DNA of 45,164 bases, from NCBI GenBank assembly GCA_021776915.1, contig JAIQZU010000070.1, positions 1 through 45,164 on the forward strand, in the 5' to 3' direction. A program made the translations under genes and the position numbers. Each line of letters starts with the position of its first letter. Positions within the stretch are counted from its first letter, which is position 1. Origin of the DNA: Candidatus Scalindua sp. GTDB taxonomy: Bacteria; Planctomycetota; Brocadiia; Brocadiales; Scalinduaceae. Of the stretch, positions 3,689-45,164 are shown in pieces. A model generated the notes under the pieces. The model was given only the letters and a program-made list of their open reading frames with translations. It ran no database searches and was not told where the DNA came from.

Positions 3689-4948
3689 ATGAACAAATTT
3701 GTTTTAATTGTTAGTTGTTTTTGGTTAATAACTATATTATTCTTCAACTCTGAAGGCAGGGGCGAACAGCCGTTCGACCATACTTTGCATCCACCACACC
3801 TGGCGGGAGTAGGTGAGACTCATACTCCGTCAAAGATTTCCACAAAGAAAACAGATTCCTGTACGGCAAGGTGCCATGTTAATTATATGGCATATGAAAA
3901 CAAATTTAAATCTCTCAAAAAGGATGAAATATTTAAACATAAGTCACATTCATCCGAGCAGGACATGGACTGCGAATCCTGCCACGACGATAGCGAGGTC
4001 AATACCAAGGGGCATGGTAAACTGATAATTAAAGAAGAAAACTGTCTTAAGTGTCATCATGTCGAATTAAAAGTATCTGAATGTAAAAGATGCCATAATA
4101 ATATTGATGATAATTCCATGAAATATAAGAAGGAGAAATTCATACACGGGTTTACGGTGGAAAGTGATGTTGACTGTGGGTTATGTCACGTTAAAGACCC
4201 GAATGCTTCGATAAAAAATGAAGAAATAAATTGTGTTAAATGCCACCATACAACACCGGGTTTAGATTGCGTAAAGTGTCATAAAGATGATTTAGACAAG
4301 TATTTAAATACAGACCCACAGAGGAAGGACAGTCTTTCATGGACTGTATCTTTCAGTCACGCTCAGCATCCCGAACAGGATTTGTCATGCAAGGAATGCC
4401 ACCCGATCAGTCATGAGAATGATGCCGGTATTGTAGAATACAACCTCAATTGCAGTAAATGCCATCATGCCTCTGAGGAAAAGGCAGGGTGTATTGAATG
4501 CCATAATGAACCTTCTGAATATTTAAGAGGCGAAACAGGAGTTGAAGGAATTAAATCCATGCCTGATATGATGTCCAGAGCAGTAAAATGTGAAGACTGC
4601 CATAAGTATGATGGAGAGGGTCTGCAATTTAAAGGAGTAAAGGAACAGTGTATAGAATGTCATAATGGTGATTATGGAAAACTATACAATGCCTGGACTA
4701 AGACTATTAAGGATAGATTGAGAGAATTCAATTATCATATACAATCATTAGATGAAGAATCCGGCTTCCTTTACAAAAATGAGACAGATATGGAAGGGGA
4801 GAAGAAGGAGGAAGCAGTGGGGCAGTCGAATCTGGACAATTTTATGGATCGAACAGGTAAGACAGTTGATTTAATTACAAAATACGGGACTCACAATTTT
4901 AACCTGACAAGGAAACTCCTGGATTATCTGGAAGAAAAGATAAAATAA
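3689..4948 (+). CDS. Secreted multiheme cytochrome c, about 12 hemes
   Basis: ATG at 3689 is preferred over an in-frame TTG at 3665, because it puts a normal signal peptide at the N-terminus (lysine at 3, hydrophobic 4-20). The 419-residue product has eleven CxxCH sites (95, 119, 132, 163, 182, 194, 234, 255, 268, 301, 321) and one CX3CH (C58-TAR-C62-H63). Many sites are followed or preceded by extra His (CHH, SHAQHP), typical of bis-His class III-like multiheme proteins. The C-terminal 90 residues are charged, heme-free and probably helical. No enzyme active-site motif was recognised, so an electron carrier or hub role is most likely. It is the last gene of the respiratory cluster. There is no clear Shine-Dalgarno at either start. 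Confidence 0.75.
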   Translation: MNKFVLIVSCFWLITILFFNSEGRGEQPFDHTLHPPHLAGVGETHTPSKISTKKTDSCTARCHVNYMAYENKFKSLKKDEIFKHKSHSSEQDMDCESCHDDSEVNTKGHGKLIIKEENCLKCHHVELKVSECKRCHNNIDDNSMKYKKEKFIHGFTVESDVDCGLCHVKDPNASIKNEEINCVKCHHTTPGLDCVKCHKDDLDKYLNTDPQRKDSLSWTVSFSHAQHPEQDLSCKECHPISHENDAGIVEYNLNCSKCHHASEEKAGCIECHNEPSEYLRGETGVEGIKSMPDMMSRAVKCEDCHKYDGEGLQFKGVKEQCIECHNGDYGKLYNAWTKTIKDRLREFNYHIQSLDEESGFLYKNETDMEGEKKEEAVGQSNLDNFMDRTGKTVDLITKYGTHNFNLTRKLLDYLEEKIK

Positions 4949-5052
4949 TATTCTGGTTTTATGTTGTTAAAGAAACTGTAGGGTCACTTGACAATTTCAG
5001 AAAAGGAATCGAGTCTGTCAAGAATTTTGTGTAAACCTCAAATCCTGTGTTA

Positions 5053-35414: not shown

Positions 35415-35465
35415 GATAGTCTTTTGCGTGCGGATTTGTATTTTATCTTAAGGAAGAGATGTCTG

Positions 35466-36386
35466 ATGATTGAGAAATTGACTATAGAATTTATAGCAAA
35501 ACTGGAGCACGAAAAGGGTTACTCCGAACACACCTTGAGGGCGTATCATAAAGACCTGTCCCAGTTTAATACTTTCTTAAGAGACGAGAAATGCAGTAGT
35601 TTAAAAAGCGTTAATCATCTTCTGTTGAGAAAATTTCTTGCCGTCTTGAGAACTAATAATTACTCAAAAACCACAATAGCCCGGAAACTGGCATCAATAC
35701 GATCTTTCTTTAAATATTTAATTCAAGCAGGCGAGCTTGTATCAAATCCTTTTGAAGCCTTGCGTACTCCTAAACAGGAGAAGAAATTGCCTCATTTTTT
35801 AAGCATAAGCGATGTGGATGTCCTGCTAAAGGCACCTGACTGCTCAAATTCAATGGGACTGAGAGATTTGGCCATGCTGGAAACGCTCTACAGTACGGGA
35901 ATAAGGGTAAGTGAACTGGTCAATTTAGACGACGGAGATATTGATTTCTTTGGCGGGATGATAAAGGTAACGGGAAAAGGTAAGAAAGAGAGAATCGTTC
36001 CAATCGGGATTCATGCGACTAAGGCCATAAATGAATATATTAATTCCAAATCGCAACGTAAGAAAGACGAGAAAAAGAAGGCAAGTCAGATAAGTAAGAC
36101 GAGTAAGAATGAACCTCTTTTTCTTAATAAATACGGTAACCGCCTTACGGCGAGGAGTGTTGCTCGAACGCTTGATAAGTATTTAAAGATGTCTGGGATA
36201 AATCTGCTTACATCTCCACACACATTCAGGCACAGCTTTGCAACTCATTTGCTGGATAAGGGAGCCGACCTGCGATCCGTCCAGGAACTGCTAGGCCACT
36301 CCAATCTCTCCACAACGCAGGTATACACACACGTAACGACAGAACGTTTAAAAAGCGTATATGAGAAATCTCATCCGCGTAAATAG
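35466..36386 (+). CDS. Tyrosine recombinase XerC/XerD-like
   Basis: ATG 35466 with GGAAGAG upstream is preferred to a TTG at 35424. The 306-residue protein has a SAM-like core-binding domain (1-100) and a catalytic domain with the full set of residues: Arg147 (STGIRVSEL), Lys171 (TGKGKKER), His252 and Arg255 (SPHTFRHSFATHLL), His278 (LLGHSN) and Tyr287 (TQVYTHV). XerC/D resolve chromosome dimers at dif. A Lys-rich insert lies at about 195-215. A near-identical copy of residues 61 to the end lies at the end of the window. Either the housekeeping enzyme or a mobile-element copy is possible. Confidence 0.88.
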   Translation: MIEKLTIEFIAKLEHEKGYSEHTLRAYHKDLSQFNTFLRDEKCSSLKSVNHLLLRKFLAVLRTNNYSKTTIARKLASIRSFFKYLIQAGELVSNPFEALRTPKQEKKLPHFLSISDVDVLLKAPDCSNSMGLRDLAMLETLYSTGIRVSELVNLDDGDIDFFGGMIKVTGKGKKERIVPIGIHATKAINEYINSKSQRKKDEKKKASQISKTSKNEPLFLNKYGNRLTARSVARTLDKYLKMSGINLLTSPHTFRHSFATHLLDKGADLRSVQELLGHSNLSTTQVYTHVTTERLKSVYEKSHPRK

Positions 36387-37110
36387 CCGTTGAGCATATA
36401 CAATCATCCTTATCCCTAACCTGGCCAAGCCAGAACCAAAACATGTCCTCATGAAAATGGGTAAGGAGATGGAGATGGATATCTTAAGTAAAGCTGAGTT
36501 TATCTCGCGTATGTTCCGGTTCTGGCCAGGTTGTAAAATGAAAACCTACGGTTTTTGAACTTTCCCTTATTTAGTATAAAAAATAGTTTAAGTATAAAGT
36601 TGTTTGATTTTGAATCAACCGGGTTGTTACTTAAAAAAAACTTTTATAATGAATATTATCCTACGAAGCTGGGGTGTAGTGTAATTGCTACTGGTTTAAA
36701 ACTCAAAGAACTATTTATTATTCCACAGCTTTGTTATTAATTTCCTTTAACGCACCGAAGATGTGGTAAAACAGTTTAGTCTATAAGCCGACAATTTCTT
36801 GCTTTTTTTGAACGGAAATTTTCATCTTATAGACTAAATTCTTGAATTTTTTGACAAAATTGGTCAGAATATTTTTGTTTAGAGACTAACTGTTTTTTCA
36901 CTATGATTCATTTTGTATTCTACGTCTTATGTATCAAGTCAAGACCTGAGACTATTCTTCTAGCATAAAAGAAATTGACGGGATTAAAAACTCATTATTT
37001 TTTCTCAAATTTAATTTTAAAGCATTTTTCAAAGTAGCTCTAAAATGTCTCTGCAAAAAGATATTTTTAGCTGTCATGCGAGTGAAGACAAATCTGGTGA
37101 TGTTCGTGTA
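36387..37110. other. Gap after xer with inverted repeats
   Basis: No supported gene. AACCTGGCCA-type ends at 36418 and 36534 form an imperfect inverted repeat around a short frame (about 36450-36558, 35 codons). A perfect 13-base inverted repeat TTTAGTCTATAAG (36775-36787) / CTTATAGACTAAA (36826-36838) is followed by a related AGAGACTAACTGTTTT arm. Two small frames (one at 36555) are unlikely to be genes. Confidence 0.4.
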
Positions 37111-37114
37111 CTTC

Positions 37115-38110
37115 TCCTAATTGGGGTCGGGTAGAAATACGGCGCGCGCAACTGTAGGTAGAGAGTTACCGTCCCGCACCCTTTCGGTTGTGCGGCGGGT
37201 TCCTAATTCCATCATGGCCCACGATTCCGCAAGCCCCCTTCTCATCCCGTACGGTCGGATTTCCCGAGTACGGTTGGCGGCAGCAGCTACTTTCCAAGGA
37301 ACCTTCCCATATCCATCCGAGGCTTAAGCACTCGCCGGCATACACCCATTACGTCATGGTTATAACCTTAGCTCTACATCCCGTACAAGTGACACTAACT
37401 TCCGGCTCTGAGTCCGACAGTGTACCTTACCGATGCCCACTACTCACCGAGAGCCACTTTGCCAATATGATGGTGTTACCATCTTACTGGATCATGTCAT
37501 TCATGGTCTCCGTCGGAGTTACCCGACCTTTATCGCTCTTACCGGCTCATGCGCCAGACCACAATCCTCATGCCGACTTCGGTTTCCCTATTTCGACAGG
37601 TCTTCGCAGGTTGCTACGAGCCCCTGCTGGAAGATGGCCATTCCCGACGTTATCCCTGCGACTTTGTATGGGCGCTTGAATCCCTACCCCGTCACGACCC
37701 AACGGTGCTTTTCGTCCGTTTCTTCCCGTTGGACATTGGCCTCCCCTTAGGGTCAAGAGGGTCGGCTCGTGGAAAGTTCCCACAACGCAGCTTTATGTGG
37801 GGGAATATTTCGAGGCTGCAACCATTCGTTTACCTTCAGGCTCCCATACTTGTTTGGCCCACAGACTGCTCTGACCTTCAAGGCCCATGCCCATTCGGCC
37901 ACCGGGCCGTATACACCGGGCAGTACTCGTACCGTTACCGGTCACGAACTCCGGTATCACTACGTGTCCGAACCGGACAATTGACACGACAGGACTTGTG
38001 AGGACATTCGCCTTCACTCACCTGCTAGACCGCAACCTTGTCGGCTGCTTCTGACCCCTTGCTTTGACCCATACCTTCCCTTCCCAATATTAATATCTTA
38101 ACCGGGGGGA
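37115..38110 (-). ncRNA. GC-rich structured block; candidate group II intron-like RNA
   Basis: About 1 kb is clearly richer in G+C than its AT-rich flanks. Overlapping frames in several phases have no family match, the usual mark of structural RNA. Read on the minus strand, 37247-37273 folds like intron domain V: CCGTAC stem, UCGG stem, GAAA loop, CCGA, a two-base CC bulge, then GTACGG. GATGAGAAGGGGGC follows, much as after domain V. CTCTCTACCTAC (37154-37165) could be the 3' end. Other exact hairpins include GATGGTAACACCATC (37469-37483). The lower domain V pairs and a 5' GUGYG end were not found, and there is no reverse transcriptase, so this may be a remnant or another large RNA. Confidence 0.4.
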
Positions 38111-38839
38111 GGGTACGATGTATGTTCCGCTTCCCAGACAAATTGAGTTTTCTTGTTGACAGGTGGGAAAAATTATACTAACCTTGCCACTCTATCCGCA
38201 TATTTATAAGGTAAAGTCTAGTATTTGGATAAATTCACGCCCAATTCATAACGAAGCTGGATTTTGGCTGCGCTTACATATTTGCATTAAATTATGTGCT
38301 TACTCTTTTTAGTTTTAGAAGTTGGCTACATAATGACTACAAATTGAAGAAAATGTTAAATGTTATTATTTCAGGACTTTAATGATTTGTAGCTTTATTA
38401 CTCAATTCCATTCAATTCTACCAGCATAAGAACTATACCACAACTTTTGGTGTGGATAAGTTATCTTAAATAAAGCTTATTGCGGCAGTGATGTAAATAA
38501 ATGAACTAACGTGTCACGCACGGGAGATATCAAATTATAATATCCATGATTCACTGGATATTAGGCGATAAATCAACTTGTGATATTTGTAATATATGCA
38601 GGTTTTATATAAAGACAAGAAACTGCCTAGTTCAGTATCAACAAGGTGGAGTTGGACATAAGTTAGTAATTCTTGGCAAATAAGATAGTTAGTGATAGAG
38701 CCTTTTTTCGATCATGGAAACTAGCAATACCGTAAAAGGATTTTGTGTAGGGAACGATTGCATAGAGTACATATAAATACAGGCACAGATTTGATGTTTT
38801 CTGAGATAAAGTCACTTTCTCAAGGGGAGGGCATACAAG
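38111..38839. other. AT-rich gap upstream of GMC operon
   Basis: 729 bases with no credible gene. It contains copy B of the dispersed repeat (38155-38320) and AT-rich sequence otherwise. It presumably holds the promoter of the GMC oxidoreductase operon, but no convincing -35/-10 pair was selected. Confidence 0.4.
38155..38320 (+). repeat. Dispersed repeat, copy B (partner at 12435-12600)
   Basis: It shares blocks TTGACAGGTGGGAAA, ATTCATAACGAAGC, GCTTACATA and GCATTAAATTAT with copy A in the same order and spacing. The hairpin that is perfect in copy A (GAAGCC/GGCTTC) is degraded here. It sits directly beside the GC-rich structured block. Confidence 0.5.
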
Positions 38840-44426: not shown

Positions 44427-45164
44427 TTGAGAACTAATAATTACTCTAAAACCACTATAGCCCGGAAACTGGCATCAATACGGTCCTTCTTCAAATTTCT
44501 AATTCAGGCAGGCGAGCTTGTATCAAATCCATTTGAGGCCTTGCGTACTCCTAAACAGGATAAGAAACTGCCTCATTTCTTAAGCATAAGCGATGTGGAT
44601 GTTCTGCTGAAGACACCTGACTGCTCAAATTCAATGGGGCTGAGAGATTTGGCCATGCTGGAAACGCTCTACAGTACGGGAATAAGGGTAAGTGAACTGG
44701 TCAATTTAGACGACGGAGATATTGATTTCTTTGGCGGGATGATAAAGGTAACGGGAAAAGGTAAGAAAGAGAGAATAGTTCCTATCGGGATTCATGCGAC
44801 TAAGGCCATAAATGAATATATTAATTCCAAATCGAAGTATAAGAAAGAGGAGAAAGACGAGAAAAAGAAGGCAAGCAAGATAAGTAATACGAGTAAGAAT
44901 GAACCTCTTTTTCTTAATAAATACGGCAACCGCCTTACAGCGAGGAGTGTTGCGAGAGTGCTGGATAAGTATTTAAAGATGTCCGGCATAAATCTGCTTA
45001 CATCTCCACACACATTCAGGCATAGCTTTGCAACTCATTTGCTGGATAAGGGAGCCGACCTGCGATCCGTCCAGGAACTGCTAGGCCACTCCAATCTCTC
45101 CACCACGCAGGTATACACACACGTAACGACAGAACGTTTAAAAGCCGTATACGAGAAATCTCAT
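44427..45164 (+). pseudogene. 5'-truncated second copy of the xer recombinase (runs off window)
   Basis: From 44427 the sequence is nearly identical to 35646-36374 (residue 61 onward of the first recombinase). Substitutions are scattered, more of them in the first 200 bases, and a 9-base insertion lies in the Lys-rich linker. All catalytic residues (Arg, Lys, His-Arg, His, Tyr) are kept, but the first 60 residues of the core-binding domain are missing. In frame, a stop lies at 44415-44417. The only early start is TTG 44427 without a ribosome site. It is called a truncated copy; it could still make a catalytic-domain-only protein. Confidence 0.75.

Follow-up and report, generated by a model that had tools for sequence, protein, structure and literature searches.

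A probable ORF-less group II intron of Candidatus Scalindua and relatives with an atypical domain V that recur inside other group II introns

We analysed a 45,164-nucleotide stretch of Candidatus Scalindua sp. DNA (hereafter the window; assembly GCA_021776915.1, contig JAIQZU010000070.1), which carries two xer-type tyrosine recombinase genes (35424–36383 and 44427–45164; their proteins share 93% identity over 246 aa). The second of these is truncated where the contig stops, and the contig may therefore have broken at the xer repeat. Elsewhere in the same genome (95% complete), a hydrazine synthase alpha match (PF18582, 83 bits, at G000:C19:2092-2403) identifies the host as an anammox-type planctomycete. 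Between the two xer genes lies a GC-rich block (0.48–0.56 across 37001–38000 vs 0.30–0.43 in the immediate surroundings), which had already stood out in an earlier sequence-only reading. That reading was right about the block and wrong about its extent: the limits are those of Table 1 rather than 37115–38110, and the true 3' end is CUACCCGAC at 37134–37126, the CTACCTAC motif taken for the end lying about 30 nt inside. It had also linked the block to rearrangement between the xer copies; the second xer is real, yet nothing connects the intron with it.

Table 1 Features of the element and its exon junctions in the window.
Feature	Position	Strand	Basis and remarks
Very probable complete ORF-less group II intron	37126..38051	minus	926 nt; 5' GAAGCAGCCGAC ... 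CUACCCGAC 3'
Domain I (exon recognition, scaffold)	37644..38044	minus	Compensated consensus helices and weak RF02003/RF02005 matches
Domain II	37556..37640	minus	Consensus helices
Domain III	37451..37548	minus	Consensus helices
Domain IV, ~170 nt, without ORF	37278..37448	minus	Helices; ORF list; no Pfam match
Domain V, C-A-A-CCGUAC..GUACGG-GA-U-G	37243..37276	minus	A-A-C at 37275–37273, facing 1x2 internal loop
Domain VI, apical part extended	37129..37239	minus	Consensus helices
Candidate branch-point A	37132	minus	7 nt before 3' end, counted from sequence
EBS1 UUGACCC	37750..37756	minus	Pairs with 5' exon GGGGTCA; 6/6 in window copy
EBS2 position	37802..37807	minus	Family-wide pairing with exon −9 to −14; weak in window copy
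EBS3 G	37684	minus	Pairs with first 3'-exon base C
5' exon IBS1 GGGGTCA	38052..38058	minus	Same heptamer before L003, L013 and L026 copies
IBS3, first 3'-exon base C	37125	minus	EBS3 pairing

A nucleotide search of 98 genomes (the window's own genome and relatives) revealed a copy in another genome of the genus (G003), 91% identical and with identical ends, two more copies that are truncated by contig edges and break at the element's two ends, and copies at 69–73% identity elsewhere; in its own genome, the window element is single copy. A further match was located on a Mycobacterium riyadhense plasmid, beside a gene annotated 'group II intron maturase-specific domain'. The phage and E. coli collections and the viral contigs searched contained no match. 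Two lines of evidence set the element's ends: the G003 copies break at the same points, and EBS1 and EBS3 pair with the exons across 24 distinct sites. Because these ends are discrete, the block is a unit and not a patch of composition.

Eight frames were compared with Pfam, seven from the block and that of xer; the xer frame alone gave a credible match, indicating that the shadow frames of the block are not genes; they had been described as lacking a family, and the protein match in one frame that was to count against a ribozyme did not appear. Rfam at gathering scores returned no match anywhere in the window. A relaxed search, however, gave RF02003 (38007–37830, minus strand, 24.7 bits, E 0.004) and RF02005 (37817–37686, minus strand, 19.8 bits, E 0.004), both domain I–IV models, in the right order on the same strand.

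We then compared exon pairing across copies. EBS1 paired with IBS1 at one alignment column with a mean of 5.5 out of 6 pairs (24 copies, different 5' exons), whereas exons permuted among copies gave at most 3.92 as the best over all columns (60 trials). EBS3 and IBS3 were Watson-Crick partners in 24/24 copies (permutation maximum 0.76, 500 permutations), and EBS2 paired with exon positions −9 to −14 at a mean of 4.33/6, vs a permutation maximum of 3.75. Judged from these pairings, the set of EBS1, EBS2 and EBS3 is IIB-type exon recognition.

The flanks of the window copy contain further sequences of interest. Just past the intron 3' end, 37026–37103 (plus strand) is 86% like the start of an 83-aa ORF (L003:3064-3142) that has, by eye, the look of a TIR-domain gene; the window frame is apparently broken near the intron end. 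On the 5' side, ~45–75 bp within 38069–38143 recurs at 85–87% in four same-genus genomes (L006–L009), and this sequence is a dispersed repeat. A second clear copy of it was not found in the window's own genome, and GGGGTCA occurs within the window at chance level, so no home repeat can be named. An empty site of the window copy was not found.

The consensus fold of 33 full copies contains 219 pairs, of which 152 show compensatory change, and has an energy of −403 kcal mol−1; column-shuffled alignments reached −111 to −145 kcal mol−1 with 23 to 40 compensatory pairs, making the real fold energy about three times that of the controls. Covariation against these controls rules out a chance origin of the hairpins. 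All six domains, D1 to D6, are present in order, with 27 pairs (11 compensatory) in D5-D6. The search for copies and covariation proposed at the outset was thus borne out, as was the proposal of a group II intron ribozyme without its protein, now backed by EBS1, EBS2 and EBS3 exon covariation together with a covarying six-domain fold. We consider the block very probably, as far as sequence comparison can tell, a complete ORF-less group II intron with IIB-like exon recognition, whose protein gene was lost or never present.

The ribozyme is unusual at its 5' end and in its active site. The 5' end reads GGAGCAGCCG, with GGAGC in nearly all copies and GAAGC in the window, in place of GUGYG. Complete copies end in AC, in agreement with the AY of group II introns, and nearly all have CUACCCGAC- or CUAUCCCGAC-type ends with an A in D6, 7 or 8 nt before the 3' end. 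This A occupies the position of the bulged branch point, and we regard it as a candidate for that role. The family domain V follows N-A-A-CCGKAC ... GKMCGG-GA-U-N', a hairpin with the two-base 3' bulge and a GNRA-type loop, in which AAC opposite G-GA-U stands where AGC or CGC would be expected. At the position of the G of the AGC triad, which in canonical D5 wobbles with U, an A faces GA. The loop, GAAAU, can be read as five bases or as a triloop closed by G-U. The minus-strand fold at 37247–37273 (CCGUAC, two-base bulge, GUACGG, GAAA-type loop) on which the sequence-only reading had built its case is conserved across homologues, and both the strand and the domain V assignment were right.

Compensatory changes in D5 affect the outer pair (G-C/C-G) and the inner pair (G-C/U-A), with the internal loop constant. 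The scan pattern fixes ACTSGGGAAATCCSACYGTMCGGGAT (CGGGAT and the upper hairpin) by construction, so invariance there proves nothing; the A-A and the outer pair are outside the fixed pattern. The pattern played no part in the discovery of two related ORF-less introns, L005 in G014 and L115 in G026, from the family and order to which the window genome belongs. Both retain AGC, have GGAAU as the 3' strand and so form the 1x2 internal loop of the element from different bases; D6 and the 3' end are similar to those of the element, and neither locus gave a reverse transcriptase (RT) match. In Gracilibacter (L041), the interrupted domain V of an RT-associated host intron reads GAACC/GGGUC, and this outer domain V, with an AAC-type triad and no extra base, is a possible intermediate form. 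By exon pairing, fold and 3' end, the element would be classed as a group II intron, and it departs from the definition at the 5' motif and the triad. With a 5' end other than GUGYG and a triad other than AGC, catalysis is not to be assumed from homology. The Rfam domain V model RF00029 gave no match at threshold to the D5s of the lineage, so that surveys based on it would miss these introns, as would those based on RT genes.

A single D5 pattern scan (one genome per species) located 93 more loci, spread over Bacillota, Planctomycetota, Pseudomonadota, Thermodesulfobacteriota, Myxococcota, Actinomycetota and others, at least six phyla in all; because the pattern is exact, locus counts are lower bounds, D5 diversity is understated and divergent members are missed. 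A D5-D6 model detected the element in 4/294 genomes of the phylum, also a lower bound, since strict filters scored few candidates, and the E-values of this short-calibrated model are rough. Domain IV is the usual site of the maturase gene in group II introns. In 56 copies with both ends set by motif (744–988 nt), no room for a reverse transcriptase was found, and no RT or maturase ORF was present in D4. From these sequences, the lineage is apparently a widespread and overlooked group of bacterial ORF-less group II introns. Its spread, its atypical D5 and 5' end, and its invasion of domain V described below were all unforeseen in the sequence-only reading. Two loci showed unusual arrangements: in Neobacillus pocheonensis (L051), two element copies lie head to tail, the second beginning exactly at the end of the first, and on a Cupriavidus KK10 plasmid (L016, ~4055–5000), most of the intron interior is apparently replaced by transposase-gene-like sequence.

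We investigated the insertion sites of 35 non-redundant complete copies, which are not fully independent of each other. At least 21 of the 35 lie inside other group II introns, and 12, in several clades, are inserted into the domain V terminal loop of their host intron. When the flanks were rejoined, the domain V hairpin refolded with its loop at the junction and a two-base 3' bulge in 11/35 copies under a strict rule, compared with 63/20000 random sites (0.3%) and 82/5835 mismatched flanks (1.4%); the twelfth case (L053) was recognised by eye. In the domain V cases, RT-matching sequence stops 29–49 nt upstream of the element, and the first half of domain V fills the space between. In several of them, EBS2 complements the triad strand (GGCTC for GAGCC; GGTTC for host GAACC). 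Other copies occupy host domain I (L019, L025, L030, L044, L063, L093 and L066, the last having the RT of its host downstream); L024 immediately follows a domain V, and L105 splits an RT gene. In Neobacillus, an uninterrupted intron (L101) matches the flanks of L073, once these are joined, at 88% across 241 nt, and the alignment runs gap-free through the junction, demonstrating precise insertion without target duplication. Lodged as its members often are in the catalytic core of other group II introns, the lineage has the look of a parasite of parasites, one whose own active site is unusual.

Not every site is an intron. The window copy occupies its GGGGTCA site, common to the three other loci listed in Table 1, outside any recognisable intron. 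Several Gracilibacillus loci (L018, L032 and others) hold elements in a dispersed repeat, inserted between CGCTCCGGCTTGCCCA and CTTCGCTTTCCGG..., which suggests a multi-copy landing site other than introns in that genus.

We examined the RT context of the host genomes. GIIM or RVT_1 matches were present in 19/19 other host genomes searched (two handles appear to denote one genome); this presence is no more than consistent with dependence in trans. Neither a GIIM nor an RT match was found in the window's own genome. Gracilibacillus massiliensis (L110, L111) carries 13 ORF-less elements together with 11 near-identical RT-encoding group II introns (468-aa frame), and is a good system for the study of trans-mobilisation.

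We propose that the minus-strand transcript of the element would fold into a group II ribozyme, in which the candidate branch-point A at 37132 would attack the 5' splice site chosen by EBS1 (and EBS2), and exon joining would proceed with EBS3. Since no complete copy encodes an RT or maturase, splicing and retrohoming would most likely be assisted in trans by the maturases of RT-encoding group II introns, often the very RT intron that hosts the nested element. Splicing out of the inner intron would then restore the catalytic domain or the RT gene of the host intron. Lariat splicing and trans-mobilisation are both inferred from sequence; mobilisation of ORF-less introns by the RT of another intron has a tested precedent in Thermosynechococcus elongatus (PMC2882425). 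In its full form, we give roughly an even chance to the following reading: a phylum-crossing, protein-less lineage with a rebuilt D5 (AAC facing a 1x2 loop) is a specialised invader of group II introns, whose EBS2 reads GAGCC and which inserts into the domain V loop, so that the host acts only after the guest splices and the guest borrows the host's maturase. If the lineage splices, a ribozyme can work with an arrangement other than the AGC triad that is also found in spliceosomal U6; if the domain V preference is real, a selfish element parasitises the active site of another selfish element, and guest splicing becomes the host's on-switch.

If splicing needs a maturase, the window copy, with no RT match in its genome, would be expected to splice inefficiently. 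Lying outside introns in such a genome, it is probably stranded and mobile no longer, and is possibly still splicing. That it is a dead relic, a once-mobile intergenic group II intron no longer transcribed or spliced, is in our judgement evenly balanced: its single-copy state, the RT or maturase not found in its genome, the 5' GAAGC where nearly all others have GGAGC, and the weak EBS2 pairing all favour it, but EBS1 and EBS3 pair perfectly with the exons, and the copy retains an intact structure and 91% identity to that in G003. This alternative bears on the activity of one copy and is compatible with the group II identification. A lineage that splices without any maturase through its altered active site, with RT introns as a landing place only, would account for the ORF absent from every complete copy, the RT not found in the window genome and the constant manner in which D5 deviates at the triad; we consider this unlikely, given that all 19 other searched host genomes contain a GIIM or RVT_1 match and that group II intron mobility requires reverse transcription.

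Assistance in trans remains our preferred reading, and the identity of the element as an intron leaves two further alternatives scarcely any probability. An undescribed large structured RNA, the fallback of the earlier reading, would agree with a window free of Rfam gathering-score matches and with the silence of the domain V model, but exon covariation with element positions and gapless insertion are intron-specific and make the element an intron; the EBS/IBS covariation refutes this alternative. A circularly permuted group II RNA producing RNA circles would likewise be ORF-less with altered boundary sequences (GGGCG and NU; PMC8637638), but D5-D6 do not lie upstream of D1 here: the order is D1-D2-D3-D4-D5-D6, with the exon-pairing ends outside the domains, and this order refutes the permuted form. 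Rather improbable, though far less remote than these two, is that domain V nesting reflects one ancient twintron inherited as a unit instead of repeated targeting. The nearly identical insertion point in the loop and the clustering of the domain V label on the element tree are in its favour; against it, the habit needs six label changes on that tree, at least four of them forced by well supported branches. The tree argues that the domain V habit is not one inherited twintron, and losses may explain some of the changes.

Nesting of this kind has a reported organellar counterpart. Copertino and Hallick are said to have described a Euglena chloroplast psbF twintron, with one group II intron within the domain V of another; that is a single organellar case, whereas the present lineage is bacterial and recurrent. 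Among Rfam families, RF02003 (group-II-D1D4-4) matches L010, L021 and L080 at 50–54 bits and is sub-threshold in the window, as is the domain I–IV model RF02005 (D1D4-6). Circularly permuted group II RNAs (Roth et al. 2021, PMC8637638), in which D1 comes after D5-D6 and the linker contains both boundaries, share with the element an ORF-less state, a relationship to bacterial group II introns and altered boundary motifs; the element differs in its normal domain order and in a D5 triad of AAC, not AGC. A 2015 review predicted that any ORF-less introns so far overlooked would have to possess unusual structures in domain V (PMC4424553). We did not find a description of such a lineage in the open-licence literature, and an earlier description elsewhere is possible. 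The closest parallel is T. elongatus, where the ORF-less TeI3 introns and the TeI4 twintrons are mobilised in trans by the RT of related introns (Mohr, Ghanem and Lambowitz 2010, PMC2882425). Like the present elements, TeI3/TeI4 are ORF-less, nested within RT introns and well matched in EBS/IBS; they go back to a single ORF deletion within one genome, still contain remnants of the RT, and have their insertion points close to the beginning of the RT ORF (PMC2882425). In contrast, the lineage described here crosses phyla, has no recognised remnants, carries an atypical D5 and 5' end, and nests most commonly in the domain V loop.
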